Source: Bradyrhizobium guangxiense
GTDB taxonomy: Bacteria > Pseudomonadota > Alphaproteobacteria > Rhizobiales > Xanthobacteraceae
Length of the DNA stretch: 64,000 nt
Assembly (NCBI RefSeq): GCF_004114915.1
Contig: NZ_CP022219.1
Location: 3,068,501-3,132,500, forward strand
Reading direction: 5' to 3'
The notes under the pieces were generated by a model. It ran no database searches. It was not told the origin of the DNA and saw nothing but the letters and a program-made list of their open reading frames with translations. Both the position numbers and the translations under genes were made by a program. Each line of letters begins with the position of its first letter. Within the stretch, counting starts at the first letter, position 1. Positions 8,118 through 23,726 of this stretch are shown one piece after another.

Positions 8118-8171
8118 AACTGGCGATCCCGGCAGGACTCGAACCTGCAACCCGCGGAGTAGAAATCCGCT
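8118..8171. repeat. attL: 54-bp direct repeat, tRNA-Arg 3' fragment
   Basis: Identical to 23673-23726. It corresponds on the minus strand to the tRNA-Arg 3' end, from CCA through the T arm to the anticodon stem; the 5' part of the tRNA is missing, so this copy is not functional. The match stops at g/t on the left and t/a on the right. Confidence 0.9.
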
Positions 8172-8266
8172 TTCATTTCTTGATTTTACTATCAAATTTC
8201 GCGTCATGTTGCGCCTTTGTCGCGCCTACCGTATACTCCCGGCAATTCTCAAGGCGAGGGTGCGAC

Positions 8267-8443
8267 ATGTCGATTGAAGATGAAATCGAACATCTTTTTT
8301 GGGGAGCGATCGAAACATTTCCGCAGGACAAACGCGATGCAGCGAAGAATTGGCTCGCGCAACGCATCTCAGCTTTTGAAACGATCGACGCGGCCCAGAC
8401 TGATGAATTGAGGGCTAGCATTCTTCCCGATGGAGAGGAGTGA
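8267..8443 (+). CDS. small acidic protein upstream of integrase
   Basis: 58 residues starting MSIEDEIEHLFWGAIE, with a purine-rich ribosome binding site (aaggcgaggg) just upstream. It is rich in Asp/Glu and predicted helical. It ends 6 bp before the integrase start and its last codons carry the integrase ribosome binding site (ggagaggag), so the two genes are probably co-transcribed. A recombination-directionality or regulatory role would fit the position, but I see no known domain. Confidence 0.6.
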   Translation: MSIEDEIEHLFWGAIETFPQDKRDAAKNWLAQRISAFETIDAAQTDELRASILPDGEE

Positions 8444-8449
8444 GTCGCA

Positions 8450-9706
8450 ATGTCGATCAGGAAGCGGGTGTGGACCACGGAGAGCGGCGAAGAGCGCTCG
8501 GCTTACGTCGTTCAATATTCAACGGCTGAACGGGATGCCCGCGGAAAGCGCAAGCGCCACATAAAGACCTTCGATCGCAAAAAAGATGCCGAGGACTTCC
8601 AGGCGCAAGTCCGGATCGATGTAAAGAAAGGAGTTCACACTCCTACAAGTCGTAGCATTACGGTCGAGCAAGCTGGCGACCTATGGATCGATGGTTGCGG
8701 CGATCTCGAACGTTCGTCAGTCGATCAATACCGCCAGCACCTGAAGTTTCACATCAATCCATATCTCGGGCCTTTGAAACTTGCAGCGCTGACAGTTGCG
8801 ATTGTTCGAGAGTGGCAGGACAAGCTTCGCAACGGTATTCCCGCACCGGGGCAGAAGGTCGGCGAGGTTCGTTCAGCGACAATGGTCAAGAAAGTCACCA
8901 CTTCGCTCTCCAGCTTGCTCAGCGACGCACTGGAACGCGGGAAGGTGGGGCACAACGTCGTGCGTTCGATGACCGCGAACCGCAGTAGAAAGCGCAAAGT
9001 CGAACGTCGACAAAAGCGCAAGCTGGTTATCGGGCGAGATATTCCCGAACCGCGGGAGGTGGACGCGCTGTTGCAGCATACCAACAGCGAGCGTTGGCGC
9101 GCATTCTTTCTTACGGCTGTTCGCTGCGGCCTGCGCGCCAGCGAACTACGCGGGCTGCGCTGGCAGGACGTCGATTTCAAAAAGAGCGAACTGCATGTTC
9201 GCCAGCGCGCTGATCGGTATAACACCATTGGCAATCCGAAGTCGGCCGATAGTCAACGAGTCGTTCCAGTCCCGCCTAAGACGCTCGCCGCGCTCAAAGC
9301 ATGGAAACTGCAATGTCCGAAGAATGAAGCCCAGCTACACCTGGTTTTTCCGAACGGCTCCGGAAAAGTCGAGACTCACTCGAACATCATCGAACGCGGG
9401 ATTATCCCCGCCTGGGAAACGGCCGGCATCACGGTGCCAATGCTGGATGAAGGTGGGAAGCCGCAGCGAGATGAGAAGGGCAGGCCAGTCGTACGAGCAA
9501 AATACACGGGTGCGCACAGCCTGCGGCACTACTTCGCCAGTTGGTGCCTCGCTCGGCCTCCAGTCGGTCTCGGCTTGAACCTGAAAGAGCTATCGGAGCG
9601 GATCGGTCACGCGTCTATTCAGATCACAATCGACACATACGCGCACTTGATCCCGCGAGCCGATCACGCCGAGGAATTGGCCGCGGCGGAAGGTAAATTT
9701 GGTTAG
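8450..9706 (+). CDS. site-specific tyrosine recombinase (integrase)
   Basis: A 418-residue integrase catalysing insertion and excision at the tRNA-Arg att site. The N-terminal AP2-like arm-binding region covers about residues 1-65, a SAM-like core-binding domain about 70-175, and the catalytic domain about 200-418. The active-site set is visible: Arg229 (CGLRASELR), Lys264, His356 and Arg359 (HSLRHYF), His387 (RIGHASI) and the nucleophile Tyr397 (DTYAHL). It appears intact. It starts 279 bp inside attL, the usual place for the integrase of a tRNA-targeted element. Confidence 0.95.
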   Translation: MSIRKRVWTTESGEERSAYVVQYSTAERDARGKRKRHIKTFDRKKDAEDFQAQVRIDVKKGVHTPTSRSITVEQAGDLWIDGCGDLERSSVDQYRQHLKFHINPYLGPLKLAALTVAIVREWQDKLRNGIPAPGQKVGEVRSATMVKKVTTSLSSLLSDALERGKVGHNVVRSMTANRSRKRKVERRQKRKLVIGRDIPEPREVDALLQHTNSERWRAFFLTAVRCGLRASELRGLRWQDVDFKKSELHVRQRADRYNTIGNPKSADSQRVVPVPPKTLAALKAWKLQCPKNEAQLHLVFPNGSGKVETHSNIIERGIIPAWETAGITVPMLDEGGKPQRDEKGRPVVRAKYTGAHSLRHYFASWCLARPPVGLGLNLKELSERIGHASIQITIDTYAHLIPRADHAEELAAAEGKFG

Positions 9707-9920
9707 GATTTTTTAACCGGCGCCATGTTTTAGTATTTTCACGTAGTTTCTAGCGGAAGTAGTCAAGCGTTTGCCGGGATGGCAACGACGGACGGGATGT
9801 CCTAGCGCTTTGGTGAAACCCGAACGACCGGGATGGTCGAGAGCGAACCAGCACAATATGTGCTCGCGCCTCGGCTATTTTTTTGCCCGATGTAGCGAGC
9901 CTCAATGGAGTCTCGCGGTC

Positions 9921-10124
9921 GTGAAAACCGAAAATCCAGAAACCGAACTTGTGTGGGGCGCTGCTGCTATCGGCAGAGTGATCGGCCGCACGGAGAAGGG
10001 CGCTTTCCATGCGCTAGAAAGCGGACGTGTGCCTGGCGCGAAAAAGATCGCCGGCCGCTGGGGACTTCACCTCCCGACATTCCTCGCGGCATTCCAAAAC
10101 GCAACCTCGGCCGCCGCTGCCTAA
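9921..10124 (+). CDS. small helix-turn-helix DNA-binding protein
   Basis: 67 residues from a GTG preceded by ggag at a 10-nt distance; the longer upstream reading frame is not protein-like. The segment VWGAAAIGRVIGRTEKGAFH followed by ALESGRVPGAKKIAGRWGLH is the pattern of short HTH proteins common in rhizobial prophages, with a recognition helix and a Trp-containing wing. It is probably a regulator or excisionase-like factor of the element. It precedes a 254-residue gene by 18 bp and is likely co-transcribed with it. Confidence 0.65.
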   Translation: MKTENPETELVWGAAAIGRVIGRTEKGAFHALESGRVPGAKKIAGRWGLHLPTFLAAFQNATSAAAA

Positions 10125-10142
10125 CTATCCAAAGGAAACATC

Positions 10143-10907
10143 ATGTCACTGATCGACGAACTTAGCCTGCGCTTTATGCGCCACAACAACACCAGGGCTG
10201 CGGAGCGCTTGCGTTCGCACTTCCTGAGTTCGATCGACGTTCTCGACAAAATCGAAGCCAAGCGAGCCGAAGCGAGAGCGGACAAGCGTTTGTCTGATCA
10301 TGGCCGCGCGGATCTAGTGCGGTCTCATGCCCCTAGCCTCGCTCCTCACCTGGTTCGAGCAAAGTCGGCCGTCGCTCTCGCTCGCCGGGAGATTAAGGCG
10401 CAGCGCGACGCAATGACGCCGCGCGTCACAGATCGGAAAGACACCGCCAGTGCGATGCTGCGCCTTGATCTCCGGCAATTTCTGCGTGGCAAAACGCAGG
10501 CTGAGATCGCCCGCATCGCGGAGCAAGACCGATCCGTTCTCGAAGCGGTATTCGAGGGACCGGCCGCGCTGAGCGGACTCACCGACGAGGTCCGGGAGCA
10601 CATTTTGACCGCCCATTTGAACCGGACCGCCGCGCCGCAGATGCAAGATCTGGCTGAGCAGGAGTCGGTGGTCGAAGTGCTGGAGACAGCGATCGCAGTG
10701 GCCTCGAATGCAGTTGCCGACGCGGCGGGCGTGATGCGCGACCACGTTGACGCTTGGTTGGTAGAGCAAGCACCGGCTGAAGCTAAAGCCGCGGCCGAAG
10801 CGCTTGGTACGCCGCCGAAGCCCGCGGCGTCAAATTCGATCGACGACACCTATGCTCGTCTGCTCGCTGAAGGCCGCGCTGAAATCGCCGCGATTATGGC
10901 GCGTTGA
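10143..10907 (+). CDS. hypothetical alpha-helical protein of the element
   Basis: A 254-residue protein with a good ribosome binding site (aaaggaaac). It is nearly all predicted helix, Ala- and Arg-rich, with heptad-like segments around residues 45-110 and 165-215; no membrane helix and no known motif. It could be structural or DNA-associated, but I do not recognise it. The C-terminal stretch after about residue 215 is Pro/Ala-rich and then helical again. Confidence 0.6.
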   Translation: MSLIDELSLRFMRHNNTRAAERLRSHFLSSIDVLDKIEAKRAEARADKRLSDHGRADLVRSHAPSLAPHLVRAKSAVALARREIKAQRDAMTPRVTDRKDTASAMLRLDLRQFLRGKTQAEIARIAEQDRSVLEAVFEGPAALSGLTDEVREHILTAHLNRTAAPQMQDLAEQESVVEVLETAIAVASNAVADAAGVMRDHVDAWLVEQAPAEAKAAAEALGTPPKPAASNSIDDTYARLLAEGRAEIAAIMAR

Positions 10908-10971
10908 GCCGTGAGCCTGGTTTCGAACCTCACGAATTTATTGAATTTGCCAGGGTGAATGGAACGGTCTG

Positions 10972-11208
10972 ATGTCGACATTTCGCGAAAAGCACATCGC
11001 TGCCGGTGAACGTTACCGCGCCGCAGTACTAGAACTCCGGGCGGCATACGGCGAGCTGGGCGCATTTGATCGCCGGGCCAGCGCACCGGGCTTCGGTGTG
11101 CCGCCGGAGATCGTGCCGCTACGGCATTCAGTCTTTGCTCCGAACGTCGCCGGATCTTTTGCTGAGGACGTCCGAGGGGCCTTCGAAGCTCGCCCGTGGG
11201 AGCGCTGA
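10972..11208 (+). CDS. small hypothetical protein
   Basis: 78 residues starting MSTFREKHIAAGERYRAAVL, with ggaacg about 8 nt upstream. The first 35 residues are helical; the rest contains a Pro/Gly-rich segment. No family is recognised. It continues the same strand as the preceding 254-residue gene with a 64-bp gap. Confidence 0.5.
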   Translation: MSTFREKHIAAGERYRAAVLELRAAYGELGAFDRRASAPGFGVPPEIVPLRHSVFAPNVAGSFAEDVRGAFEARPWER

Positions 11209-11296
11209 GGCGTCCACATCAGGGTCCCGCGGCTTCTTATGCGCGTCTGCTCTCTGAAGTCCGCGGAAATTGCCCCGCTATGCCGCTTCGAGCGGC

Positions 11297-11336
11297 AAAA
11301 AGGCCCCAGCCCGACAAAGGTATGTTGGGCCGGGGC
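11297..11336 (-). terminator. rho-independent terminator, minus strand
   Basis: A 14-bp stem (gccccagcccgaca / tgttgggccggggc, one mismatch and one G-T pair, 6-nt loop) at 11303-11336. Read on the minus strand it is followed by cttttt. It fits the end of the minus-strand coiled-coil gene at 11445-11660. A smaller hairpin (gccgct/agcggc) lies alongside at 11282-11296. Confidence 0.65.
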
Positions 11337-11444
11337 ACAAGTCACCTTCTTCCAAGCGCCCGGAGGATCTACCGAGCGCTTCGGGAAAACTTGGCAAGCC
11401 CAGCGTGGTTCCCGGACCAGCGGCGGCAACAAGCTCGGAGACCT

Positions 11445-11660
11445 TCAGGGCTGAAGCCGGGAAAGGAGACGTTGTCGGTCTTGATCGCGACGTCGCTGAT
11501 CTTGGCGCATCCGTTCAAGTTCAGCTTCTACTTTGGCTGTCTCCTGACCTTGGCGCTTCAATTCAAGAAGTAAGGCCTCTTGCTCAGCGAGCCGTCGTTC
11601 TCCTTCGACCACTTCGCACTCGATCCGCCTCAGCTCGTCAAATTGTGCAGTGTGATCCAT
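11445..11660 (-). CDS. small coiled-coil protein
   Basis: 71 residues, almost entirely charged heptads (FDELRRIECEVVEGERRLAE, then a run of Glu/Gln/Arg/Leu to residue 68), so a single long coiled coil is predicted. Short proteins of this type are familiar from Bradyrhizobium genomes but have no assigned function. A minus-strand terminator lies about 108 bp downstream, which supports expression as its own unit. Confidence 0.6.
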   Translation of the reverse strand: MDHTAQFDELRRIECEVVEGERRLAEQEALLLELKRQGQETAKVEAELERMRQDQRRRDQDRQRLLSRLQP

Positions 11661-11984
11661 TGGAAATCGATGCCACTAGGTTGCGAACGGCTATCTGCAG
11701 AGCGGAGCAATCAGCACACTTTTAACTCGACCAACATCTTGGATGTTCCGATTGATTGCGACGTTCAGGACTGACAACGCGCAGCATTGAACATATCGAC
11801 TGTTTAGCCGGAGCCGCGAGGTGGGGGTTTTGAGTTCGACTCCGCCGATCGTTCGGAAGATATGGGGAAGACACAGCTTCTCAGCCCACAGGAGCTGGCG
11901 GCACTCTTTGGAACCGACATCGTTACATCAGATTAGAGTCGAGCAGCCGGGAAAACCTGGCAATCTTTCTTGAAGGACGGGGTC
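11661..11984. other. intergenic stretch
   Basis: No gene or RNA is recognisable here. It should contain the promoter of the minus-strand coiled-coil gene. Confidence 0.3.
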
Positions 11985-12236
11985 ATGAAGAAGCCGGCGA
12001 AGGGGTTGTTTCGAAAAGACCAACTTAGATCAATTAGCGAAGTCGAACGGCGGCTCGCCGAAATTCAGGAGATGCAACGGCGCTTGGAAGCGGACGGTTT
12101 CCAACAGTCCGAGCATTGCCAACAGCCGCACCGCGCTAGATTGTGCTCGGGCGAGGATAGGAAGCAGGCCATCATCCCCGCTAATACGAGCAGTTTGAGC
12201 ACTTCGACGCCACCCTCCATCCTGAGAGGAAGGTGA
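11985..12236 (+). CDS. small hypothetical protein, possibly degenerate
   Basis: The first about 40 residues (MKKPAKGLFRKDQLRS, then a Glu/Arg-rich helix EVERRLAEIQEMQRRLEADG) look like a genuine small coiled-coil protein with ggacgggg as ribosome binding site. The remainder is Ser/His/Gln-rich and not protein-like, so a frameshift may have altered the C-terminus. A 51-residue Cys-rich frame lies antisense (12065-12220). Confidence 0.35.
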   Translation: MKKPAKGLFRKDQLRSISEVERRLAEIQEMQRRLEADGFQQSEHCQQPHRARLCSGEDRKQAIIPANTSSLSTSTPPSILRGR

Positions 12237-12428
12237 GTCCGCGTCAGATTGCGGCTCGCGGCGACCTTGGCTCAGAGCGTCGCGACGACTGCTTCCTGGT
12301 GGATCCCGAACAGATTTATGCAAGCTGGCGAAGGCAGCCTTTGACCCAAAGCCGACCTTTAGGGACCGCATCCGACATCCGCCCTTTGCCGCTTAGGAAC
12401 CAAGCAAACCGCTGTGCTTTTCAGTCCG

Positions 12429-12680
12429 ATGCAAGATGATCCGCTCTTTCGGCGAGCTGACAAAGCCATCCGCGAGTGCCAAGTTTCACGGAAACAGGCG
12501 CGCGACAATCTGGAGAGGGCATACGTGGCCGCCGCGCGCGTTAGGGCCACGCTGAAGGTGATACGCGCTATGCCTGACTATCCGTCTCCCCTGGAAATGG
12601 CTGATACGGCAGCCTCAGTTCTGGAAAATCCAGAGGCGAATAGAGTTTCATGCTCCGGGCATGAAAAGTCGTCCGAATAG
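12429..12680 (+). CDS. small hypothetical protein
   Basis: 83 residues starting MQDDPLFRRADKAIRECQ, mostly helical in the first 55 residues. There is no strong ribosome binding site. Its 3' third overlaps the opposite-strand frame 12568-12804, so at most one may be fully real. No family is recognised. Confidence 0.4.
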   Translation: MQDDPLFRRADKAIRECQVSRKQARDNLERAYVAAARVRATLKVIRAMPDYPSPLEMADTAASVLENPEANRVSCSGHEKSSE

Positions 12681-12804
12681 CCAAGCGCCGCAGATTGTAG
12701 AGAACTTCGGCCTGCCATTTGTCGTTTTCAGCCATTAGCCGTTTAGCCTCCTCAATCGCTGCGGAGGCACGCGCAAACAGTTCGGCATTCGTGGCGGGGG
12801 CCAT
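12568..12804 (-). CDS. small hypothetical protein
   Basis: 78 residues starting MAPATNAELFARASAAIEEA, an amphipathic helical N-terminal half, then a less regular tail containing LYSPLDFPELRLPYQ. It resembles a small rhizobial family I recall only loosely. It overlaps the plus-strand frame 12429-12680 tail to tail. The ribosome binding site is weak. Confidence 0.4.
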   Translation of the reverse strand: MAPATNAELFARASAAIEEAKRLMAENDKWQAEVLYNLRRLAIRTTFHARSMKLYSPLDFPELRLPYQPFPGETDSQA

Positions 12805-12963
12805 ACCGCTTAACCAACATAGGTTAATCTGAGTTCCGCCTCCTTTGCGATTTTGGAACAGAGGGTGCTGTTGGACATTTTCCCGCACCACCGATCGGGG
12901 CCCTAGCCGTAGGCGTCGGTGGCTGAGAGACACGCGCGCTCCCGCCTGCGTTGGGAGTGCCGG

Positions 12964-13206
12964 ATGCCCCTTTATTTCTTCGACTTCCGCGATGGGGAGG
13001 ACCTTATCCTCGATGAGGAAGGGTTGGATCTGCGGGACATGATGGCGGTCCAAAGAGAGGCGGCCCGCGCTCTGGCGGGACTGGCAGCGGATAGCATGGC
13101 AAGTTTCAAGGACTCGCAAGTCCATCAAATGGCAATCGCCGTGCGCGATAAAAGCGGCCCTGTGATGGAAGTCGAGTTCTCCTTTACGATCATCCACACG
13201 CAGTAA
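12964..13206 (+). CDS. DUF6894-like small protein
   Basis: 80 residues starting MPLYFFDFRDGEDLILDEEG, the typical opening of DUF6894 proteins, which are abundant in Bradyrhizobium (a Tyr/Phe-rich strand, then D-x-E-G and an AVQREAARALA helix). Function is unknown. I chose the internal ATG because the family begins there. A plus-strand terminator-like hairpin lies 245 bp downstream. Confidence 0.7.
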   Translation: MPLYFFDFRDGEDLILDEEGLDLRDMMAVQREAARALAGLAADSMASFKDSQVHQMAIAVRDKSGPVMEVEFSFTIIHTQ

Positions 13207-13450
13207 GCCCACCCCTGCTGGCGACGTCTTCGCCAATGTCGCCTGTTGGCCCTTAGCGGTCCTCGCTCTTAAACGCCGCGACGTCTGCTGTCATTCGGAC
13301 AAGGGACTCGTGTGGAATCTTGAGTTCAGTGGATGCTTGGCGGTCGTTGCCAACCAGCGGCCGGTTGAAGTAGGGAACGAATCGTAATCCCACGAATTGC
13401 TTCTGTGCTCCGGTGTCCACCACGCCCCCCTGAAGCCGGAGCAGACCCCA

Positions 13451-13487
13451 CGGCCCCGGCAGCCTGCCTGCTGGGGCCGCCGTTTTC
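13451..13487 (+). terminator. rho-independent terminator, plus strand
   Basis: A perfect 12-bp stem (cggccccggcag / ctgctggggccg with one G-T pair, loop cctgc) followed by ccgtttt. It probably ends transcription from the DUF6894 gene and shields it from the minus-strand block to the right. Confidence 0.6.
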
Positions 13488-13686
13488 ATAAACGCCTCTT
13501 TGTGTCCACGACGTAGCCGTCCGGCATTTCAGGCACATCGTCCGGATTGCCGGGCTCGGTCCTGTTGCAGATGGGGCAAGGCTCGCCGGGCGCACCGCAA
13601 GGACAGGCTCGGTGGCCGAACATCGGTCGGTCGGGGTGAGTCTCGCAGACCCACCGGATGTTGTCGCATCGTGCGCAGTACCTCAT
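13486..13686 (-). CDS. small CxxC zinc-ribbon-like protein
   Basis: 66 residues starting MRYCARCDNIRWVCETH. Pairs of Cys (CARC, CETH, CPC, CPIC) suggest a zinc-binding fold. It belongs to a type of short rhizobial protein often found in accessory DNA; function is unknown. It is the last gene of a minus-strand group of four small genes (14675 down to 13486). Confidence 0.6.
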   Translation of the reverse strand: MRYCARCDNIRWVCETHPDRPMFGHRACPCGAPGEPCPICNRTEPGNPDDVPEMPDGYVVDTKRRL

Positions 13687-13726
13687 GATGATGGTACGTG
13701 CTCGCGGCCCACGGGTTTCACACGGA

Positions 13727-13939
13727 CTACGCCGCATGGCTCCTGCCTTCCTCGCTTAGTTCGAAGCGCTGTCCGCTCCTGACGAGTAAGCCGGCCTCAA
13801 TCATCTGCTTGGCAAGCGACATGCTACAGACCGGGTGAGCGCTCCCGGGATGGTAGAGCTTGGAGCCGCGCGCCACGAGAACCCCATATAGTAGCGTGAG
13901 GCGCAGCGGCCGTAGCATTCCCGGCGAAACTTCTGGCAT
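13727..13939 (-). CDS. small hypothetical, possibly winged-helix, protein
   Basis: 70 residues starting MPEVSPGMLRPLRLTLLYGV. The segment SMSLAKQMIEAGLLVRSGQR followed by FELSEEGR looks like a helix plus beta-wing of a small DNA-binding protein (inference). It sits between two other small minus-strand genes with 40-45 bp gaps. Confidence 0.5.
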   Translation of the reverse strand: MPEVSPGMLRPLRLTLLYGVLVARGSKLYHPGSAHPVCSMSLAKQMIEAGLLVRSGQRFELSEEGRSHAA

Positions 13940-13983
13940 GTCCAGAAAAGTGCAAAGAGGGGCGGTCGTTCCTTTGAATCGCT

Positions 13984-14346
13984 TCAGGCGGCTCCGCGCA
14001 GAGGCAGCGCGAGTTGCAGACCAAACGGGCGGGAGCTGTTGGCGCGGACGAACGCTTCCAGCGCGGGCGGAAGTTCGATCCGTTCGTGCGACACTCGGTC
14101 GGCGAGCGCGTCTGCTATGTCCTCTGTGGCATCGCGGGACCACCCTTCGACAGCGTTGAAAGCGACAATTTTGATCGGATAGGCATACTGCCCCGACAGT
14201 AGGTCCCGCAGCACCGTTTCACGGTCTGTGTCCTGCTCGTCGGTTTCGCGCCAGGCGCAGCCAAGGCGCGCGCCGAAATCCTCAAGCACCAGATAGATGT
14301 CGCGGTCGAGACGATCTAGCGGGACAATCGATGGTGACTGACGCAT
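13984..14346 (-). CDS. conserved rhizobial hypothetical protein
   Basis: 120 residues starting MRQSPSIVPLDRLDRDIYLV. I recognise the layout (DxYLVLEDFG, AWRETDEQDTDRETV, LLSGQY, VAFNAVEGWSRD) as a widespread small family of Bradyrhizobium and relatives without known function. It is acidic in the middle and soluble. It is part of the minus-strand small-gene group of the element. Confidence 0.7.
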   Translation of the reverse strand: MRQSPSIVPLDRLDRDIYLVLEDFGARLGCAWRETDEQDTDRETVLRDLLSGQYAYPIKIVAFNAVEGWSRDATEDIADALADRVSHERIELPPALEAFVRANSSRPFGLQLALPLRGAA

Positions 14347-14381
14347 ACGCTACTCCGGAACTTCCATGGGAGAAGTCGTGT

Positions 14382-14675
14382 CTATGGCGCATTGTTCCGA
14401 CGATGGGCCGCGAGCGCAAGAGGCGGCTGACCGGTGTCGAAATCCGGCCTTACGTCGGCGCCGCGCCGGCCGCAGGCGGTGCAGGTGAAGCGGGGCTCGA
14501 CGTCGGAAAGCCGAAGCTCATCAGCCCAAAAATGGGCGCTGACTGAGGTGTTGTGGCCACAGCGGTAGTCGGCACAGTAGATCAAGACGTCACGTAGACC
14601 CATCTCGCGCAGCTCGCCGAAGGTAATCTTGACCGGGCGGCCGTCTGGGGGCGTGGTGCGTTTGGAGCGAGGCAT
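14382..14675 (-). CDS. small CxxC zinc-finger-like protein
   Basis: 97 residues. The ordered features are a basic N-terminus, FGELREMGLRDVLIYCADYR, then RLSDVEPRFTCTACGRRGAD. The Cys pairs (CADYRC and CTAC) suggest a zinc ribbon. This is a recurring rhizobial small-protein family of unknown role. It is first of the minus-strand block of four small genes. Confidence 0.65.
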   Translation of the reverse strand: MPRSKRTTPPDGRPVKITFGELREMGLRDVLIYCADYRCGHNTSVSAHFWADELRLSDVEPRFTCTACGRRGADVRPDFDTGQPPLALAAHRRNNAP

Positions 14676-14878
14676 CTCGCTAAGAATGGCGACGTACGCC
14701 GAGAGTCAAATTGTCAATTGCTAGTAGCTAAAAAGCTTGCCAGCCACAGCTCGTAGTCGTTCGCGCGTTGACAAATTACGCGCCATGTTGACAAATTACG
14801 GAAAATACGAAGTTGCCTTGACGGTACGCTGCTCCTGTGGTCTCATGTTCCCGGGAATCAGAAAGGGGCTTGCATCAC

Positions 14879-15097
14879 ATGCTCGATACGATCCGCGCCA
14901 ACTTTCCTGGCTTCGTTGCGCTGCACACTCTCGCTGACTTGGACAAATACGAGGACGCGGTCGAGGCGTTCGCCTGCGGTGGAAGCCGCAGCGAATTCAT
15001 GGCTTCCCTATTCGGGCTCGGCATTCCGGCAGATCAGATTCGGATCCTGGCGAGCTATCCGGGCCGATCTCTGCCGGGCACCGTTTGCTTCGAATAG
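14879..15097 (+). CDS. small hypothetical protein
   Basis: 72 residues starting MLDTIRANFPGFVALHTLAD, preceded by aaagggg. The fold looks alpha-helical, with short segments DKYEDAVEAFACGGSRSEF and FGLGIPADQIRILASYPG. No family is recognised. It lies 69 bp before the GYF membrane protein on the same strand. Confidence 0.55.
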   Translation: MLDTIRANFPGFVALHTLADLDKYEDAVEAFACGGSRSEFMASLFGLGIPADQIRILASYPGRSLPGTVCFE

Positions 15098-16022: not shown

Positions 16023-16226
16023 ATGAAAACCGGACGTATCATCTCCTACAACAACGACCGCGGTTTTGGATGGCTCCGCAACAGCGATGGCGGGCCCGAT
16101 CTATTCGTACATGTCTCGGAGTTTCCCCGAGGGTACGATCCCGTCATCGGTCAGAACGTTTCGTTTGAAATCGAATTCGACGATCGGCGCGGCAAGACGA
16201 AAGCCGTGGGAGTTCGACTGATCTGA
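16023..16226 (+). CDS. cold-shock-domain protein
   Basis: 67 residues, a single cold-shock domain. RNP1-like GFGWL at about residues 15-19 and RNP2-like LFVHVS at about 29-34 are present; the aromatic residues for single-stranded nucleic-acid binding are mostly kept. The ribosome binding site is ggaagaggg. It overlaps the next start by one base (TGATG). Located in the element's replication arm, it probably acts as an RNA or ssDNA chaperone for the element. Confidence 0.85.
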   Translation: MKTGRIISYNNDRGFGWLRNSDGGPDLFVHVSEFPRGYDPVIGQNVSFEIEFDDRRGKTKAVGVRLI

Positions 16227-16459: not shown

Positions 16460-16466
16460 AAAAGCA

Positions 16467-16532: not shown

Positions 16533-18932
16533 ATGCATAACACATACAACAATTCCGCCGGTATCGCAACGTTTTTCGATTACGCGCAGCAAAACGCCCT
16601 CGCGCTGTTTCCGCTCCGCGCCGACACGAAGACGCCGGCTTGCGAGCATGGATTTTACGACGCGACCTCGAACCCTGCGGATTGGAAAGCCTGGCTGGAG
16701 CAAGGGCATCAGCTCGGCATCAGCGCTTGCCTGTCCCGTGTGGTCCTAATCGATGTCGACGCGCATGGCGATCGCGACGAAGCATGGGCGCAGTTTGCCG
16801 CCTGGTGCGCCGAGATTGGTATCGACGTTCCGTCCCCCTACGGACATTCACCGAGCGGCGGGTGGCACTTCGCGTTCCGATGCCCCGACGGCTTCGATCC
16901 GCAGAAGCACCGTGGATTCCACAAGGTTAAAATTTCGCATTTCCGTCCCGAAACGGCGCCCGCGGACGACGCCGAGCGAATCTCGGTCCGCAATCTTGCC
17001 TACAACGTTGCGCCTGGATCGGCGTTTAGTGGCCGACCGTATCTGCTCGCCGCCGACGCGCCGCCGCCAGTTCCGTACAGTGACAAAACAGCGCCGTTGT
17101 TCGATTTACTGAAGCGACCGGAGGGCGGTTCCATCACCGGACCTGTGCCGGACGCGGTCGGTGGCGTCTCGCATGACGACGTCCGTTACGAACAACTTTG
17201 CTGGTGGATTGGAAAAAAGGTTGAACGCTGGACAAGCGGTCTCGAAACACTGGGCAACGATGAATGGATATCGATCGGCAAGCGGATTAAACTGAGCTTC
17301 CCGGGTGAGGACGGCCTGAAAGCATTCCTGGCGATGTGCTGGGCAGATCAGCACGAGGTGATCACGCGGCGCTGGTGGAATCCTGCTGACTTCAAGACCG
17401 AGGGCGAGAACCTTGAGACGCTGTTGGCTCTGTTGAAACGCGACATCACTTGGATGTTCAAAGAGCATTTCGGGTGCCCGCAGCCTCCGATTTGCCCTGT
17501 TCCGGTTCCAGTTCAGATCCCCGCCGAAATTCTCGAACGGCTCAGACTCGAGCGGGAGCAGTATCAAGCCGCGATGCTCGGTCCGCTTCCCGATCACCCC
17601 GAACTGCCGATCGATCAGGCGCACGCGCTGAACGAATATTGGGCGCATCTGCCGTCCGGCAAGATGATTTACGAACGCACTGGCGAGCTGTTTGCCTCCG
17701 GCAGCGTCGACAAGCATATCGGCCGCGTCAAGGACGCGATGAAAGCCGAAGGCCCGGGCACGCTCGCGAGCACCTGGCTGTCGCAGCATCGGTTTGTGAA
17801 ATCGATGGGTTGGGCACCGGGGGAGCCGAAGATTATCACTGACAAGGTTTTGACGAACGACGGATGGATCCGCAGCCCAGGAGACCGGACATTCAATCGT
17901 TACATCCCGTCTCATATCGAGCCCATTGAGGGCGATGTTTCGAAGTGGCTGAATCATATTAAGTCGATCTATCCCGGCGAGGCCGACCACATCGTCCATT
18001 GGCTCGCGCACCGCGTGCAGCGCCCGGGGGATAAGCTAAATCACGCGCTGGTCTTCATCGGGCCCCAAGGCATCGGCAAAGACACGATTCTGAAGCCAGT
18101 TGTAGCAGCAATTGGTTCGCACAATTTCAAGCAGATCACTGCGAAGACGTTCTTTCATTCGGAGTGGAACGACTACCTCGTGTCCGTCGTGTTGCGCATC
18201 AATGAAGTGCACGACCTTGGGGGCGAGTCGCGGTATGCCTTCTACGACGGTACCAAGGACGTGATCACCAATCCGCCCGAGGCCCACCGCATCAACACAA
18301 AGAACATCCCGCAATATGCCGCCGAGAACGTTTGCGGGGTGATCATGACCAGCAATCACCTCGACGCGCTTTACCTCGCTCCCGACGACCGCCGACACTT
18401 CGTTTGCGTCTCGACGAAGACGCAGGAAGACTTCGGACCGGCATATTGGGACGATATCAATGCGTGGTTCGAGAGGGGCGGTAACGAGGCTGTTGCGTAT
18501 TACCTGGCGCACCTAGACATTTCGAACTTCAACGCCAAGGCGCCCCCGCCGAAAACGGCAGCTTGGCATATGGTTGTGGCGGCCGGTGTTGCGCCTGAGA
18601 GCGGCGATCTGGCGGACGTGATCGAAACTATGGGCAAGCCCGACGCCCTGACGCTGCAAATGATCAGGGCGCGCACGCCCGGTGACAGCCAGCTGCGGCT
18701 TCTGTTTGAAGATGTAAAGCTTCGCAAGGCAGTCCCGAAACGGCTTGCGGAGTGCGGCTATGTGGCCGTTGCAAATCCCGACGCTCGGGACAGCGGCGGC
18801 CGGTGGCGCGTGTCAGGGGGCAAAACAACGATCTATGCGCGGCAGGAATTGACCGAAGACGGCCGCTTGGCTGCCGCCCGATCACTCAGTACTGCATCAC
18901 TGACTCCGCCGCCGACGCCGCTAAGGCAGTGA
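16533..18932 (+). CDS. primase-polymerase / SF3 helicase replication protein
   Basis: 799 residues with a perfect aaggagg ribosome binding site. The N-terminal domain (about 1-200) is an archaeo-eukaryotic prim-pol: Asp74/Asp76 in LIDVDAHGD, then SPSGGWHFAF. After a linker, the C-terminal half is an SF3/DUF5906-type helicase with Walker A GPQGIGKDT (Lys516), Walker B region RINEVHD (Glu558, Asp561) and a sensor block MTSNHLDALYLAPDDRRHF. This is a self-sufficient initiator for element replication, as in P4 alpha-like and NrS-1-like proteins. It appears intact. Confidence 0.9.
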   Translation: MHNTYNNSAGIATFFDYAQQNALALFPLRADTKTPACEHGFYDATSNPADWKAWLEQGHQLGISACLSRVVLIDVDAHGDRDEAWAQFAAWCAEIGIDVPSPYGHSPSGGWHFAFRCPDGFDPQKHRGFHKVKISHFRPETAPADDAERISVRNLAYNVAPGSAFSGRPYLLAADAPPPVPYSDKTAPLFDLLKRPEGGSITGPVPDAVGGVSHDDVRYEQLCWWIGKKVERWTSGLETLGNDEWISIGKRIKLSFPGEDGLKAFLAMCWADQHEVITRRWWNPADFKTEGENLETLLALLKRDITWMFKEHFGCPQPPICPVPVPVQIPAEILERLRLEREQYQAAMLGPLPDHPELPIDQAHALNEYWAHLPSGKMIYERTGELFASGSVDKHIGRVKDAMKAEGPGTLASTWLSQHRFVKSMGWAPGEPKIITDKVLTNDGWIRSPGDRTFNRYIPSHIEPIEGDVSKWLNHIKSIYPGEADHIVHWLAHRVQRPGDKLNHALVFIGPQGIGKDTILKPVVAAIGSHNFKQITAKTFFHSEWNDYLVSVVLRINEVHDLGGESRYAFYDGTKDVITNPPEAHRINTKNIPQYAAENVCGVIMTSNHLDALYLAPDDRRHFVCVSTKTQEDFGPAYWDDINAWFERGGNEAVAYYLAHLDISNFNAKAPPPKTAAWHMVVAAGVAPESGDLADVIETMGKPDALTLQMIRARTPGDSQLRLLFEDVKLRKAVPKRLAECGYVAVANPDARDSGGRWRVSGGKTTIYARQELTEDGRLAAARSLSTASLTPPPTPLRQ

Positions 18933-19068
18933 ACCCGGGCAAGGTGGGCGTGATGGGCGCGGTTTTTTATGTGGTGAAAAACTGAGTTCAAAAATATGTA
19001 GACAAGCGAATAGCGGAAAAAGAAGAGCACATGAGAAATCACGCCCATCACGCCCGACGTGCCCGGGG
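18932..19068. repeat. long interrupted inverted repeat
   Basis: The exact 14-nt arms are gggcgtgatgggcg at 18946-18959 and cgcccatcacgccc at 19042-19055. They extend outward with near-matching arms aacccgggc and gcccggggt, giving roughly 22 paired bases around an AT-rich centre of about 82 nt containing TTTTTT at 18964. It starts in the last codons of the primase gene. It could be a replication origin, a pac-like site or an RNA structure; the sequence does not decide. Confidence 0.55.
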
Positions 19069-19096
19069 TACGGCGACGGTGGAGAAAGCCTCTCGT

Positions 19097-19171
19097 TCAG
19101 CGCAGTCCAAAGAACGTCAGCACTGCACCGATGACGACTATAAGACCGATAATATAGATGATCCCGTTCAT
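19097..19171 (-). CDS. 24-residue single-helix membrane microprotein
   Basis: The 24-residue peptide is almost entirely one transmembrane helix (NGIIYIIGLIVVIGAVLTFF), ending in Gly-Leu-Arg. The ribosome binding site gaggag is well placed before the ATG. Very short proteins with this I/V/L-rich pattern and a FFGLR-type ending occur across Rhizobiales from memory, but their role is unknown. It is antisense to the flow of the element's packaging genes and lies between primase and small terminase. Confidence 0.6.
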   Translation of the reverse strand: MNGIIYIIGLIVVIGAVLTFFGLR

Positions 19172-19457
19172 AGCGTTGGCTCCTCTCGTTGTGTTCGAAG
19201 CCAAACATACAAACCTTGCTTATTGTTCCCGGTCGCAACGCTGCATCAATAGGGCGTGTCGCGCGTCAATCCGCGCCAGTTTTCCGGCGCTTTAGCGCTC
19301 GCCTTAGCCGCTTGGTCTATGGATTAACGGATTATATATCTTCTCCTCACGATAATAGCGCCGGATAATCAATGCTCTAATCTACTCTGTCGCGCCCATG
19401 TTGCGCCCCCGGCCGGTGATGCGGGTCGGTGGCGCAATTCGCATTGGAAAATTGCAG
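19172..19457. other. intergenic stretch upstream of the terminase genes
   Basis: No gene is evident. It should hold the promoter of the minus-strand microprotein (just right of 19171) and possibly that of the terminase pair. A pac or cos site could lie here, as in many phages, but no diagnostic motif is visible. Confidence 0.3.
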
Positions 19458-20087
19458 ATGAAAACCGGACCCCGATGTACCTGTTGCGCTCATGACGAGC
19501 GCTGGAGGATTGAACTGCTGCGTGCTGGTGGCGCCTCGCTCGATAGCCTGGCCACGAAGTTCGGCCTGTCGAAAGATGCAATTGGCCGGCACTGGCACAA
19601 CCATGTCAGCGCGGAAATGAAAGCGTCCTATCTCGTCGGGCCGGCGCAACTCGCCGAGCTGGCAGAAAAAGCCGCGGACGAGGGCGCGTCCGTACTCGAC
19701 CACTTCCGGGCGGTGCGCACGATGCTCATGTCACAGCTCGCCGCGACCACCGAAGCCGGGGACGCGCGCGGCGCAGCAATCGTGGCCGCACAATTGGTCG
19801 GCGTGCTCGAGAAGATCGGCAAGGTAACTGGCGAGATCGCGACGATTGCGCAGGGCACCATCAACATTCAGAACAACGTGGCGATCGTGAATAGCCCGCA
19901 GTTCGCCAAAGTGCAGGCGGCCATCCTGCGAGCCCTGGCACCTCACGGAGCGGCGCGCGCGGCCGTTGTGGCAGCGCTGCACGAACTGGACTCTGAGACG
20001 GCGGACCCGGGCAGGCCCCCCGTGGTGATCGATGCTGTAGCGGTGCCGACGCTGTGTCCTGTGCCACTGCCGGAGCCGGGCGCGTGA
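19458..20087 (+). CDS. small terminase subunit-like protein
   Basis: I start at the ATG of MKTGPRCTCCAHDERWRIEL (209 residues), since upstream residues are not conserved-looking. A CTCC pair and an HTH-like block (SLDSLATKFGLSKDAIGRHW) form a DNA-binding N-terminus; helices about 55-140 could oligomerise; the C-terminal 60 residues are Ala/Pro-rich. It overlaps the large terminase start by 4 bp (GTGA), the normal arrangement of terS-terL. The call relies mainly on that position and the HTH. It would recognise the element's packaging site. Confidence 0.65.
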   Translation: MKTGPRCTCCAHDERWRIELLRAGGASLDSLATKFGLSKDAIGRHWHNHVSAEMKASYLVGPAQLAELAEKAADEGASVLDHFRAVRTMLMSQLAATTEAGDARGAAIVAAQLVGVLEKIGKVTGEIATIAQGTINIQNNVAIVNSPQFAKVQAAILRALAPHGAARAAVVAALHELDSETADPGRPPVVIDAVAVPTLCPVPLPEPGA

Positions 20088-21337
20088 CCAGCATTGCCGC
20101 AGCACTCGCCGACGCACTGGAGGACGGTGGATGGCGCGCCAAAGCCCGTCCCAGCCAGCTACCGCCGTCCGGCGATTGGATTGGTTGGATGATCCTGGCC
20201 GGCCGCGGCTTCGGTAAGACGCGAGCCGGGGCAGGGTGGGTGCACGAACTGGTCGAGACCCGTCAGGCCGGCCGCATCGCGCTAGTGGCTGCCACCGCTG
20301 CAGACGCGCGCGATACGCTTGTCGAAGGCGTGTCCGGACTGCTCAACACCGCGCCGGCGTGGAATAGGCCGATCTACGAGTCGAGCAAACGCCGGCTGAC
20401 ATGGCCAAATGGGGCGGTTGCGACAACGTTTTCCAGCGAGGAAGCGGACCGGCTGCGCGGTCCCGAACATGACGCAGCGTGGGCGGACGAACTGGCCGCA
20501 TGGACCGACGTCCAAGGGACATGGGACATGCTGCAATTCGGCCTACGTCTCGGGAAGCGCCCGCGCTGGCTCGTTACGACCACGCCTCGACCAATCAAGC
20601 TGATCAAAGAGATATTGGCGCGTCAGGATATCGTGGTGACGCGTGGCTCGACGTTCGAAAACGAAGCTAACCTGGCGCCCACGTTCCTCGCTGCTGTTCG
20701 CCAGCGGTACGAAGGGACGCGCCTTGGCCGACAGGAGCTGAACGCCGAGCTGCTTTCGGACAATCCGGGCGCGCTATGGCAACTGGACTGGCTGGACCGC
20801 GACCGCGTTTCGGCGGTCCCGGAGCTGCGCCGCATCGTCGTGGCAATCGATCCAGCCGTTTCGAACAACGAAGGCTCAGACGAGACCGGAATCATTGTGG
20901 CCGGCGTCGCGCGCGGTGGCACGATCTACGTGCTGGAGGACTGCTCGGGCCGGTACGCGCCGCACGAGTGGGCGGCGAAAGCCATCGGAGCTTACCGACG
21001 GTGGAAGGCCGACCGGATCCTCGCCGAGGTGAACAATGGGGGCGCCATGGTCGAGGCAACCATTCGCGCGCTCGATGCGCGGGTGAGCTTCAAAGCGGTG
21101 CACGCCAGCCGCGGCAAAGTGGTGCGCGCCGAGCCGATCGCAGCGCTCTACGAACAGCGCAAGGTGCATCACGTCGGCGGATTCGATGTGCTCGAAGATC
21201 AGATGTGCGCGTTTACGACGGATTTCGATCGCGCTAAGGTCGGCTATTCGCCGGACCGGGTCGACGCCCTGGTGTGGGCGCTGACCGAACTGAGCGGTCC
21301 GCAGAACATCACGATGATCACGGAGCTGCGGCTTTGA
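20084..21337 (+). CDS. large terminase subunit (packaging ATPase-nuclease)
   Basis: 417 residues from the GTG that overlaps the terS-like stop. ATPase domain: Walker A AGRGFGKTRAG (Lys45) and Walker B AAWADE (Asp135, Glu136), then a coupling motif at VTTTPRP. RNase H-like nuclease domain: VVAIDPAVSNNEGSDETG, DRILAEVNNGG and PDRVDALVWAL carry the expected acidic residues. It packages DNA into proheads and cuts it. It looks complete, which is unusual for an element with no capsid or portal genes. Confidence 0.93.
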   Translation: MTSIAAALADALEDGGWRAKARPSQLPPSGDWIGWMILAGRGFGKTRAGAGWVHELVETRQAGRIALVAATAADARDTLVEGVSGLLNTAPAWNRPIYESSKRRLTWPNGAVATTFSSEEADRLRGPEHDAAWADELAAWTDVQGTWDMLQFGLRLGKRPRWLVTTTPRPIKLIKEILARQDIVVTRGSTFENEANLAPTFLAAVRQRYEGTRLGRQELNAELLSDNPGALWQLDWLDRDRVSAVPELRRIVVAIDPAVSNNEGSDETGIIVAGVARGGTIYVLEDCSGRYAPHEWAAKAIGAYRRWKADRILAEVNNGGAMVEATIRALDARVSFKAVHASRGKVVRAEPIAALYEQRKVHHVGGFDVLEDQMCAFTTDFDRAKVGYSPDRVDALVWALTELSGPQNITMITELRL

Positions 21338-21398
21338 CGAAACAGCTTTGATTCGACAGCTGTTCCTGCCTACTTTGCTGGCCGGGGAGCTGATCAAC

Positions 21399-22139
21399 AT
21401 GAATCTTGAAAAATTTCCTTCAATAATTGCGGCGTTCAGTTTCGCAGCGCTTTCAGTTGTAGTGGCATACGAATGGGGATACTTCGGCGTAGTCGGGAGA
21501 GACTTCCAATCCTACTTCACCACCTATGATTATTTCTCGGACCTGATTGTTGCGTCGGGGCCGGCTTTCGTTGTGATGCTAATCATTGTGGTCGTTCAGA
21601 TCGCCCTCTATCGAAAAGACAACTTCAAAAAGCCGGGCAAGCCCAAAAGCATAATAGGAAAGTGGTTCGATGAATGGTCGTTAGAAACGATCTACTTGGT
21701 ATTGGCGATTACGGCCATTTTGTTCTCGGATCAGACTCGCCTTTCCGCATTTTACCTGTTGCTGGCCTTCATCTATATCCGTGTCGCGAACTACATTCTG
21801 AGCTACGATGCTCTCAAGCCGCACAGGCTCCAACCTCTCGGCCTGGCGACGGTGATCTTGCCTGCTATGATGATCGCTTCGTATGGCGTTGGTCGCGACG
21901 GTGCATACTCTGATTTAGCGAATCTGAGATTTGAACATGAACTGCGGCTCAAAAATACTTTGGCTTCACGACCAATTCACCTCTTGCGACTGCTCGACAA
22001 GGGCGCACTCATAGTGGAGGCGGGATCATCTACCATCGACTTCATACCCAAGGAGGAGATCGTGCTGCTACGCCAGGCATTGCCAACCTGGGAAAAGCGC
22101 TCGCTCGCATGTCGCTATTGGGCCTGGGGTTGTAAATAG
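21399..22139 (+). CDS. membrane protein, possible cargo gene
   Basis: 246 residues; I chose the ATG of MNLEKFPSIIAA because ggggag lies 9 nt upstream. Four to five membrane helices occupy about residues 8-30, 55-75, 100-120, 125-145 and 155-175, followed by a soluble C-terminal region of about 70 residues with ALIVEAGSSTIDFIPKEEIV. The base composition is visibly lower in GC than the neighbouring terminase, suggesting separate acquisition. No known family is recognised. The position, after terL and before a toxin-antitoxin module at the element's end, is a common place for anti-phage cargo (inference). Confidence 0.6.
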   Translation: MNLEKFPSIIAAFSFAALSVVVAYEWGYFGVVGRDFQSYFTTYDYFSDLIVASGPAFVVMLIIVVVQIALYRKDNFKKPGKPKSIIGKWFDEWSLETIYLVLAITAILFSDQTRLSAFYLLLAFIYIRVANYILSYDALKPHRLQPLGLATVILPAMMIASYGVGRDGAYSDLANLRFEHELRLKNTLASRPIHLLRLLDKGALIVEAGSSTIDFIPKEEIVLLRQALPTWEKRSLACRYWAWGCK

Positions 22140-22316
22140 CCGCGATAGCTAACGCGTCGGGTGCCAACACGTCGTGATCGTGGGTAGGGAAGCACGACGA
22201 TATCGTGCTAGCGGTGAGCTACGGGATTTGGTGGGCGACGTCGGGGCCGCGGACGCTGCGAGAGGAGCTGCAGATTTTGCATAGATCCCGCGACACTGGT
22301 CAATGCGCCTGCAGCT

Positions 22317-22583
22317 TCATTTGGGCTTCTTCCGAGTAACCGGCTTCGCTGGTTCGACAATGGGTACGCCCGGAGGCGTGTCTGGCCCAGCCTGAACTAG
22401 TTGCACCCGGCCGACTTGCACCAATGCACTCGGCTTTATTGCCGTTGGAGATGCACCTGCCATCATCGCGGTAAAGTTGAACTCCACCCCCAAAGTCCAT
22501 CGGCCAGAAGTGAGCCCTTGTTTTCTGACGAGTGCTTCAGCCACCTCTTGTAAGTCGAAACTGTACTGAGTTGGATCAGCCAT
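22317..22583 (-). CDS. small hypothetical protein in the hicAB operon
   Basis: 88 residues starting MADPTQYSFDLQEVAEALVR; its start lies 8 bp inside the end of hicB, with aagg upstream, so it is translationally coupled to the toxin-antitoxin pair. Residues 8-20 look helical, then GRWTLGVEFNFTAMMAG suggests beta strands, and the tail is Pro/Lys-rich. No family is recognised. A third coupled gene is not usual for HicAB. Confidence 0.55.
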   Translation of the reverse strand: MADPTQYSFDLQEVAEALVRKQGLTSGRWTLGVEFNFTAMMAGASPTAIKPSALVQVGRVQLVQAGPDTPPGVPIVEPAKPVTRKKPK

Positions 22584-23190
22584 GTGTGGGGACCTTCGTT
22601 CGTCTGGCGGAACCGGGGTTGGACTTTTTAAAACCGCTGAAAACCATTCCTCCAGCCCCAGTGTGCAGAGGATAGTTTTTGAGTTCGAGGTATGCCATGC
22701 CGCCCAAGGTAGAAACGACAGCTTGATCGTGCGGGACAATCTTCGTCACATAAGTAGCGCTTTGTCTTGACACATCCACAAGGGCCGCGCGGGACGACCC
22801 AGCCAAGTGCCCGTGTGAGCCGATCGTGGTCGCACGTGAGTAGACATTTTCAAGTGTCGCCGTCGCCAGGATAGTGCCGACGTATTGGTTTAAGCTGATA
22901 CCCTCGCGCTGAGCAGCCGCAGATAGTTGAGCATGAACGGTCTTAGCGACACGAACTAGGAATTTACCACTGGGAAGCTCATCATCTAATGAGGCGGGGG
23001 GAGGCACCGGATTTCCGGCCGCTTCCGCTGCCGAGATCCATGCTTTGATAGCTGGTCCAATCTCGTTGAGCGCCTCTGCGGCTGTGGCACCGAATGCCGA
23101 GCAGCCGGGCAGTTCGGGAACGGTGGCAATATAGCCCTCATCTTCCGCACTGTACGCGATGCGCGTGGAGTATTTCGCTACGTCTGCCAT
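22576..23190 (-). CDS. hicB: HicB-family antitoxin with C-terminal extension
   Basis: 204 residues. The N-terminus (RIAYSAEDEGYIATVPELPG, then AFGATAAEALNEI) is the HicB fold that binds and blocks HicA. About residues 75-110 (GKFLVRVAKTVHAQLSAAAQ, then EGISLNQYV) form a ribbon-helix-helix DNA-binding domain for autoregulation. The remaining about 95 residues are extra relative to most HicB proteins and have no recognised domain. Its start shares one base with the hicA stop (TGATG). HicA comes first, the common order. Confidence 0.85.
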   Translation of the reverse strand: MADVAKYSTRIAYSAEDEGYIATVPELPGCSAFGATAAEALNEIGPAIKAWISAAEAAGNPVPPPASLDDELPSGKFLVRVAKTVHAQLSAAAQREGISLNQYVGTILATATLENVYSRATTIGSHGHLAGSSRAALVDVSRQSATYVTKIVPHDQAVVSTLGGMAYLELKNYPLHTGAGGMVFSGFKKSNPGSARRTKVPTHG

Positions 23191-23447
23191 CAGTCGATTC
23201 CAATCTCGTGGCCGTATCGTTCGATCATTTCGATCAGTTGTCGCGCCTGATAAGGCACAATTTTCCCGCCGCGGTTTTGAAAGTTCAGACCTGTCGGCTC
23301 ACCTGGCCGGGAATATGCTCGATGCGAACCGCCCGAATTCTTGTCGGAAAGAAAGCCGAGCCAAGTTGCCACCTTGCATGCATCCTCGAACCGAACATCT
23401 CGCGGGTTATTGCAGATGTCGGCAATTAGTTTCGCGCGCTGCGACAA
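23190..23447 (-). CDS. hicA: HicA-family mRNA interferase toxin
   Basis: 85 residues from a TTG. The family signature is clear: GGSHRAYSRPGEPTGLNFQN followed by RGGKIVPYQARQLIEMIERY, with the catalytic His42 in GSHRAY. Members have a dsRBD-like fold and cleave mRNA when free of HicB. It lies near the attR end of the element and would help to stabilise it (inference from general TA biology). Confidence 0.85.
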   Translation of the reverse strand: MSQRAKLIADICNNPRDVRFEDACKVATWLGFLSDKNSGGSHRAYSRPGEPTGLNFQNRGGKIVPYQARQLIEMIERYGHEIGID

Positions 23448-23672
23448 TGGATGATACCGTATGTAATATCAATAACCGGAAAGTTAAGGCAGGTGGGATG
23501 TGCGGCGACTCGGGACATTTTCAGCGCGACTGTACCGAAATTGCAACCTTGTTGCGCCTCGTGTCGCGCCGACCAGCCGGGAGTTGTGGGGAATCGTTGG
23601 AAATATTAGGGAATCAAGCGCAACAAGCGCAACACGACTTACTGACGGGAAAATCATGTAAGTAATTGAAAT

Positions 23673-23726
23673 AACTGGCGATCCCGGCAGGACTCGAACC
23701 TGCAACCCGCGGAGTAGAAATCCGCT
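23673..23726. repeat. attR: 54-bp direct repeat within tRNA-Arg
   Basis: Identical to 8118-8171. It restores the 3' half of the interrupted tRNA gene, so the tRNA on this side is complete. The gap between the end of hicA (23447) and this site shows no gene. Confidence 0.9.

Follow-up and report, generated by a model that had tools for sequence, protein, structure and literature searches.

We examined a 64,000-nucleotide stretch of DNA from Bradyrhizobium guangxiense (contig NZ_CP022219.1, positions 3,068,501 to 3,132,500; hereafter the window), in which two 54-bp repeats (8118-8171 and 23673-23726) enclose a 15.6-kb island carrying an integrase, a primase-helicase and a large terminase gene. 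A reading made from the sequence alone (the sequence-only reading) had proposed that the island is a phage satellite with a complete terminase and no structural genes. The attachment (att) repeat described there is perfect, its right copy lies in a tRNA-Arg(TCT) gene, and with a 14-base seed it is the sole direct repeat of at least 20 bp in positions 7000-25500. The GC content of the island is 0.585 versus 0.643 in the remaining window. A tRNA-type att site, an integrase, a size of 10-20 kb and a primase/replication module are all traits of phage-inducible chromosomal islands (PICIs). The right flank of the island is kept in relatives. Neither the left flank (7300-8117) beside tRNA-Arg(TCT) nor an exact empty site was found in the 30 loci read, each visible for about 1.5 kb past the match. 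A complete prophage at this tRNA gene that adds structural genes to those of the island was not seen either, the other occupants of the gene in relatives being read to 1.5 kb.

The features of the island, with open reading frames (ORFs) called by a simple script, are collected in Table 1. The integrase and the primase-polymerase (PrimPol) with its superfamily 3 (SF3) helicase are both intact, as had been read from the sequence. The integrase is 92% identical to that of G002 (G, C and L numbers denote genomes, contigs and loci), with a ratio of nonsynonymous to synonymous substitution rates (dN/dS) of 0.044. The PrimPol-helicase is 81-87% identical in G147, G155, G056 and G005, its dN/dS against G147 is 0.082, and no match covering 80% of its length was found in phage records. 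The gene that had been called AlpA-like is indeed a small helix-turn-helix (HTH) ORF directly after int, kept in G002, G147, G155, G106 and G001; the name is given by look, and no family in Pfam or PHROGs was matched above cut-off.

Table 1. Features of the window island (positions of the window) and of related islands; pLDDT, predicted local distance difference test.
Feature	Coordinates	Strand	Remarks
attL, 54 bp	8118..8171		perfect direct repeat
Tyrosine integrase, 418 aa, intact	8450..9706	+	PF00589 E=3e-19, PF14659; phrog_1
Small HTH gene	9921..10124	+	AlpA/excisionase-like by look only
fam6 protein, 254 aa, predicted all-helical	10143..10907	+	recurrent in related islands; model pLDDT 83
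Accessory ORF, 120 aa	13984..14346	-	gene call; related stretch in G012 C90
Accessory ORF, 97 aa	14382..14675	-	common to G147, G180, G107
GYF_2-domain protein, 199 aa	15085..15684	+	PF14237; phrog_6586
Cold-shock-like protein	16023..16226	+	phrog_729
PrimPol + SF3/VapE-type helicase, 799 aa, intact	16533..18932	+	PF09250 6e-18; DUF5906/PF19263 7e-10
40-nt imperfect inverted repeat	18934..19067 (arms 18934-18973, 19028-19067)		between primase and terS
34-bp conserved block upstream of terS	19266..19299		adjoins terS in 8 islands
terS-like gene	19398..20087 (start 19398 or 19419)	+	overlaps terL; marker family of capsid-less islands
terL, complete	20054..21337 (GTG 20054 or ATG 20084)	+	PF03237 2e-26, PF17289 9e-18
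Cargo slot: hydrophobic protein, 246 aa	21399..22139	+	no PADLOC match
Cargo slot: HicB-like antitoxin	22576..23190	-	PF05534, PF15919
Cargo slot: small HicA-like toxin partner (weak)	23190..23447	-	phrog_8887 E=0.028; no Pfam match
attR, 54 bp	23673..23726		perfect direct repeat; largely within tRNA gene
tRNA-Arg(TCT), integration target	23676..23752	-	ARAGORN
G002 island ends			57-bp direct repeat; tRNA-Arg TCT
G147 island ends			47-bp direct repeat; tRNA-Gln
G180 island ends			25-bp direct repeat at 96%; tRNA-Ser
G083 island ends			49-bp direct repeat; tRNA-Lys
G102 island ends			54-bp direct repeat at 98%; tRNA-Arg TCT
G244 island (another family of the order), 15.85 kb			55-bp repeats; tRNA-Lys(CTT)
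Split TerL gene pairs	L302:986-2415, L306:1134-2560, L308:981-2416, L300:17319-18748, others		

The gene for the large terminase subunit (TerL), when read from its ATG, shares its first 4 bp with terS. In ten island TerLs, the glycines, lysine and threonine of Walker A, an Asp-Glu pair and the nuclease aspartates, which we take to be the motif residues of TerL, do not vary. Across five islands (window, G002, G147, G107 and B. nanningense; 10 pairs per gene) dN/dS ranged from 0.034 to 0.093 for terL and from 0.050 to 0.116 for terS, at dS values of 0.62-1.19 in each case, and both genes are under strong purifying selection. Because dN/dS is low and the motif residues do not vary, the island terminases serve some function. 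In phage records TerL gave 339 matches, every one below 60% identity.

No portal, scaffold, capsid or tail family was matched among 20 element ORFs compared with PHROGs or 10 compared with Pfam (a few small ORFs were left out of these scans), which agrees with the absence of such genes noted from the sequence. Once the integrase, primase, terS and terL are set aside, ORFs without overlap encode at most 263 aa; since the portals encountered in this work have 420-565 aa, the window island has no room for one. It could be argued that the island does have portal and capsid genes, diverged beyond recognition, and that it is a capsid-forming satellite resembling the capsid-forming PICIs (cf-PICIs). 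Several of its proteins do lack a family, among them fam6, which has few relatives (at least two other Bradyrhizobium-type proteins among the matches listed, and none among 50,697 phage records) and whose predicted model has no fold match at E<=0.001. However, no family-less ORF of the window island exceeds the length given above, and an all-helical fam6 would be unlike the shell proteins of HK97 type, which are not all-helical. On ORF length we reject this explanation for the window island, and we regard it as highly improbable overall.

The search was extended to other proteins and to the carrier genomes. A further 30 proteins from nine related islands and from L145 matched no head, portal or capsid family in PHROGs; L145 has a match to a tail-completion/neck connector family. 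The island TerL is matched once in the genome carrying the window island (8.2 Mb in 2 contigs), and profile searches of that genome revealed neither a PF05065 capsid nor a PF04860 portal, on which ground a gene transfer agent was also rejected. This genome has a second match to Terminase_6N, just over cut-off, in a 348-aa open frame (G000 C1:4677790-4678212). Among ten carriers, PF05065, PF04860 and PF06381 were matched nowhere on the contig of the island and, in seven, nowhere at all, the PF06381 search having matched no control genome either. Some matches to capsid or portal families occur in G012, G073 and G083, on contigs other than that of the island.

Related islands were sought in 195 Bradyrhizobium genomes, in which TerL neighbourhoods were read up to 20 kb per side where the contig permitted. 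TerL was matched in 24 genomes and near full length in 13, carrier included; weaker or partial matches in the remaining genomes were mostly left aside. In ten genomes terS-terL is present and we found neither a portal nor a capsid gene (G000, the carrier, and G002, G107, G147, G180, G083, G012, G189, G102 and G073), so that the search for the same capsid-less plan suggested in the sequence-only reading did recover such islands. Three near-full-length TerL loci are prophage-like: portal-type genes (DUF4055, Phage_portal_3) lie downstream of terL in G139 and G042, and the 7.8-kb contig of G100 has phage-like genes and a match to a structural seed. Within the fetched stretches, these three loci have in common with the islands only TerL, the cold-shock gene and a weak helicase match. 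The cold-shock-like gene lies just before the primase region and recurs in many islands as well as in two prophage-like loci with related TerL.

A profile search detected the terS-like gene in 20 of the 195 genomes. In the 19 of these that were examined, neither a portal nor a capsid gene was detected next to terS, by weaker tests in nine; G112 and a second locus of G012 (C146) were left out. In eight islands with a split TerL (see below), capsid absence was judged from seed comparisons and ORF sizes instead of Pfam or PHROGs, with two large ORFs of G081 checked, and in G027 it was judged on the gene list only. Toward its undefined end, G056 has ORFs of 422 and 1123 aa to which no family is assigned.

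Fourteen islands, in 12 Bradyrhizobium genomes, a genome from another family and an IMG/VR record, are bounded by repeats. They measure 10.3-18.5 kb (mean 16.0, s.d. 2.0) and lie mostly in tRNA genes. Six of the eight split-TerL islands have repeats of 46-57 bp at tRNA-Gln, -Pro or -Arg, and a TerL-related element in B. nanningense (L065) also has an end at tRNA-Arg(TCT). On the IMG/VR contig, an 18.5-kb int/terS/terL island lies inside a prophage that has its own, different TerL (L229, L146, L230; G195 C1, ~26.08-44.55 kb). There the island splits a DUF6260 gene that lies in the cluster of head genes, behind the portal gene (profile positions 1-105 versus 124-301), which from its position is presumably the capsid gene of the prophage. 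The junctions show a 12-bp repeat that is not significant taken alone.

These observations bear on whether the island is instead a prophage that has lost its structural arm and is now decaying. TerL is of phage origin, some relatives retain tape-measure-like or tail-fibre-like genes and the terL copy of G027 is disrupted, all of which would suit decay. However, dN/dS of terS and terL is far below 1, the plan recurs at different tRNA genes and in one further family, and none of the loci read is a complete prophage that combines the int, primase and terS of the islands, so that we consider decay very unlikely. A simple deletion is rejected on dN/dS and on the recurrence of the island plan; because the same plan recurs without capsid genes in relatives, the window island is not a lone deletion. 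The preference for a satellite expressed in the sequence-only reading is thus supported by recurrence at the same and other tRNA genes, by purifying selection and by how little is shared with the prophage-like loci.

A marker for these islands is terS. A profile built from ten TerS proteins matches four TerL-derived loci outside the profile (L065, L066, L145 and L146), all judged capsid-less from gene lists that also displayed their terS genes. Among 79 loci that have structural genes and 1.2 kb or more of sequence ahead of terL it gave no match, not even at E<=10, although a fast-changing phage TerS could escape such a search. Of 397 genomes drawn from the order, two have the terS family, namely the carrier and G244. 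One terS family accompanies every group of fused TerLs and all islands with split TerL. In four IMG/VR fragments (L261, L263, L264 and L265), too short to be assigned to a satellite or a phage, the terS family stands beside long frames resembling further TerL types, and in G027 (C1:8027500-8029090) a terS of the same family adjoins the disrupted terL.

The conserved 34-bp block lies 130-190 bp ahead of the terS start in the window, G002, G147, G107, G027 and B. nanningense. It is also present beside terS of the split-TerL islands G155 and G106, and in G155 the longest terS frame starts ahead of it. No other occurrence with nine or fewer mismatches was found in 3.33 Mb of fetched DNA, and the block was not found in more distant islands. 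It tracks terS, not terL. The block is a candidate for a packaging site recognised by TerS, but it could equally be a control site of terS.

Eight genomes first spotted through terS (G149, G056, G005, G155, G001, G106, G133 and G081) have two genes (~250 and ~228 aa) after terS, which overlap by 10 bp in six of the eight. Homologues of the first bear PF03237, the ATPase half of TerL, and a few homologues of the second bear PF17289; the profile of the second gene also matches solved nuclease domains of phage TerL (5m1q, E=2e-8). TerL in these islands is therefore split into ATPase and nuclease genes. The families of int and primase are common to fused-TerL and split-TerL islands. Compared with the window, G155 shows identities of 60% in int, 54% in the HTH protein, 82% in the primase and 35% in TerS, with the 34-bp block present and TerL split; the primases of G005 and G056 reach 82-87%, and G133 and G149 have little beyond terS in common with the window. 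Downstream of the split genes of G155 (L302:3037-3144), a stretch of 36 codons matches the tail of fused TerL. This match may be a scar of replacement, but it need not be, because like short matches occur in G094 and G127.

The fused TerLs are themselves of several lineages. In a maximum-likelihood tree of 54 rows (15 island and 39 phage-type TerLs, with rows of unknown context dropped, phages thinned and G244 added) the island label changes three times, against an average of 13 for shuffled labels, and a single island group appeared in none of 200 bootstrap trees. A tree of 95 rows was made from the first 95 of the 115 rows remaining after 169 were thinned. In these trees, the phage label denotes a match to one of a few structural seeds anywhere in the fetched locus. 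One TerL group of nine brings together Bradyrhizobium, a Rhodoblastus metagenome-assembled genome, an IMG/VR contig and the island inside a prophage. Of 138 TerL loci with at least 3 kb downstream, 47 had no structural-seed match; the terS family was present in only three of these (L065, L145 and L146), and most others were left unclassified. For two Bradyrhizobium phages described in PMC10127595 as spontaneously produced, no significant TerL match was found.

The three groups in the tree could be taken to mean that satellites arose separately, each with a terS-terL cassette from a different phage. In that case a single terS family would not be expected in all of the groups, yet it is found there and is absent from the 79 phage-type loci, with the reservation already made about fast-changing TerS. 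The int and primase families shared by fused-TerL and split-TerL islands also argue against separate inventions, which we judge to be unlikely.

We think it probable that the window island is an integrated phage satellite with a complete terminase of its own that borrows its particles, and in which TerS and its site stay constant and TerL is exchanged. What was observed is the anatomy of the island, the recurrence of such islands with no recognised capsid gene, purifying selection and the association of several TerL lineages with one terS family. As suggested by this anatomy, Int and an excision factor would move the island into and out of tRNA-Arg, and the PrimPol-helicase, from the function of its family, would replicate it. 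TerS would bind a site beside terS, possibly the 34-bp block, and pass the DNA to the island TerL, which would attach to the portals of helper-made procapsids and fill these with island DNA. TerS and the site would form a constant core, with TerL swapped occasionally, perhaps to fit the portals of whichever helpers are at hand. Between terL and attR is a slot for cargo, such as toxin-antitoxin or restriction genes. Heads of Bradyrhizobium phages are about 60 nm, according to a part of PMC10127595, which suggests genomes of 45-60 kb; islands of ~16 kb might therefore, as a guess, travel as multimers or in smaller heads. For two prophage TerLs, which group with TerLs of the terminase-3 or terminase-6 type, that paper predicts packaging by the headful mechanism.

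Alternatively, the terminase may be retained for interference or defence, as a decoy for portals or a cutter of helper DNA, with transfer by some other route. Defence-like cargo is indeed present in relatives: a type II restriction enzyme, a methyltransferase and Vsr between terL and attR in G102 (L054:5033-7595), a PIN protein ahead of terS in G147, and a HEPN-like protein, below the Pfam cut-off, in the slot after terL of G002. However, both TerL domains keep their motif residues without change, and the conserved block stays beside terS, whereas interference alone requires no dedicated site; this role for the terminase seems very improbable to us.

Several points weigh against a satellite that packages itself into borrowed particles. 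Of the coupled pair described in the sequence-only reading, the intact terL and its overlap stand, while the terS-like protein matches no curated family (Pfam, PHROGs) above cut-off, and its model is of low confidence (pLDDT 59) and has no fold match in the PDB. We infer the name terS from the look of the sequence, the position next to terL and conservation. Excision, packaging and dependence on a helper are deduced for a candidate satellite. With neither a PF05065 nor a PF04860 gene in the carrier, a helper would need to come from outside or be of another type. G073, the weakest of the ten genomes, has portal and capsid genes on other contigs, and its island contig stops 2.8 kb after terL; that of L066 stops ~0.95 kb after terL. 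Ends are not established in seven islands (G107, G189, G012, G073, G149, G056 and G027). Finally, the three TerL groups could mean separate origins and not exchange.

In the middle of several islands are genes for a short tape-measure-like and a tail-fibre-like protein (L041:9521-12080; similar in L299, L305 and L307, the last with the tape-measure-like protein and without the tail-fibre-like one). Residues 285-498 of the G002 tail-fibre-like protein share 47% identity with a hypothetical protein encoded by the Bradyrhizobium phage ppBjS10J-1. In the window, a longer frame of the hydrophobic cargo protein, from 21348, has no Pfam family over cut-off. On a wider view, whose chances we put at about even, the islands would form a broad class of satellites with a class-specific TerS and site that are fixed and a whole TerL that is replaceable (three fused lineages or split), the motor being changed to follow the portals of helpers, and in some members the tape-measure-like and tail-fibre-like genes possibly alter the stolen tail.

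Among known satellites, those of the P4 type have psu, sid, delta and epsilon genes. The window island is like SaPI-like and Gram-negative PICIs in its size, tRNA att site, int, small HTH gene, primase-helicase and lack of capsid genes, and some of these also have terS. However, known PICIs rely on the TerL of the helper, as stated in a part of PMC9026076, whereas the window island carries a whole TerL. Like cf-PICIs, it has its own terL and, by position and conservation, its own terS; as described in a section of PMC10690885, cf-PICIs have genes for portal, protease, capsid and connectors in addition, and neither of the first-named kinds, portal or capsid, was found in the window island. In the sequence-only reading, PICIs were given as usually without a complete terL and cf-PICIs as having terL along with capsid genes. 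The Mulch and Flayer satellites of Streptomyces also have their own terS and terL, but they include portal and capsid genes and lack primases, according to the same section of PMC10690885. The PICMI satellites are similarly small and have no capsid-remodelling gene; unlike in the window island, no terS or other packaging-redirecting homologue was found in them by their authors, in the relevant part of PMC10803314. VEIMEs and tycheposons are also integrated, and are virion-borne or suspected to be so in the portions of PMC10803314 and PMC11389934 that concern them.

Since its own TerL is present and its own capsid genes were not found, the layout of a motor without a shell fits neither PICI nor cf-PICI, although its mode of working would resemble that of a PICI, and we file it as a variant of phage satellites. 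No report of satellites with TerL but no capsid was found, among the matches listed, in the open-licence literature. If true, such islands would open to experiment the question of which TerL region has to fit the portal of a foreign phage, the reason for retaining TerS while TerL changes, and the possibility that satellites of about this size move as multimers. They may also offer a path by which genes, including those for defence, pass between nitrogen-fixing bacteria of the soil. The satellites compared here, as described in the cited parts of PMC9026076 and PMC10690885, either use the TerL of the helper or carry motor and shell together; a satellite with a motor but no shell would uncouple the two.

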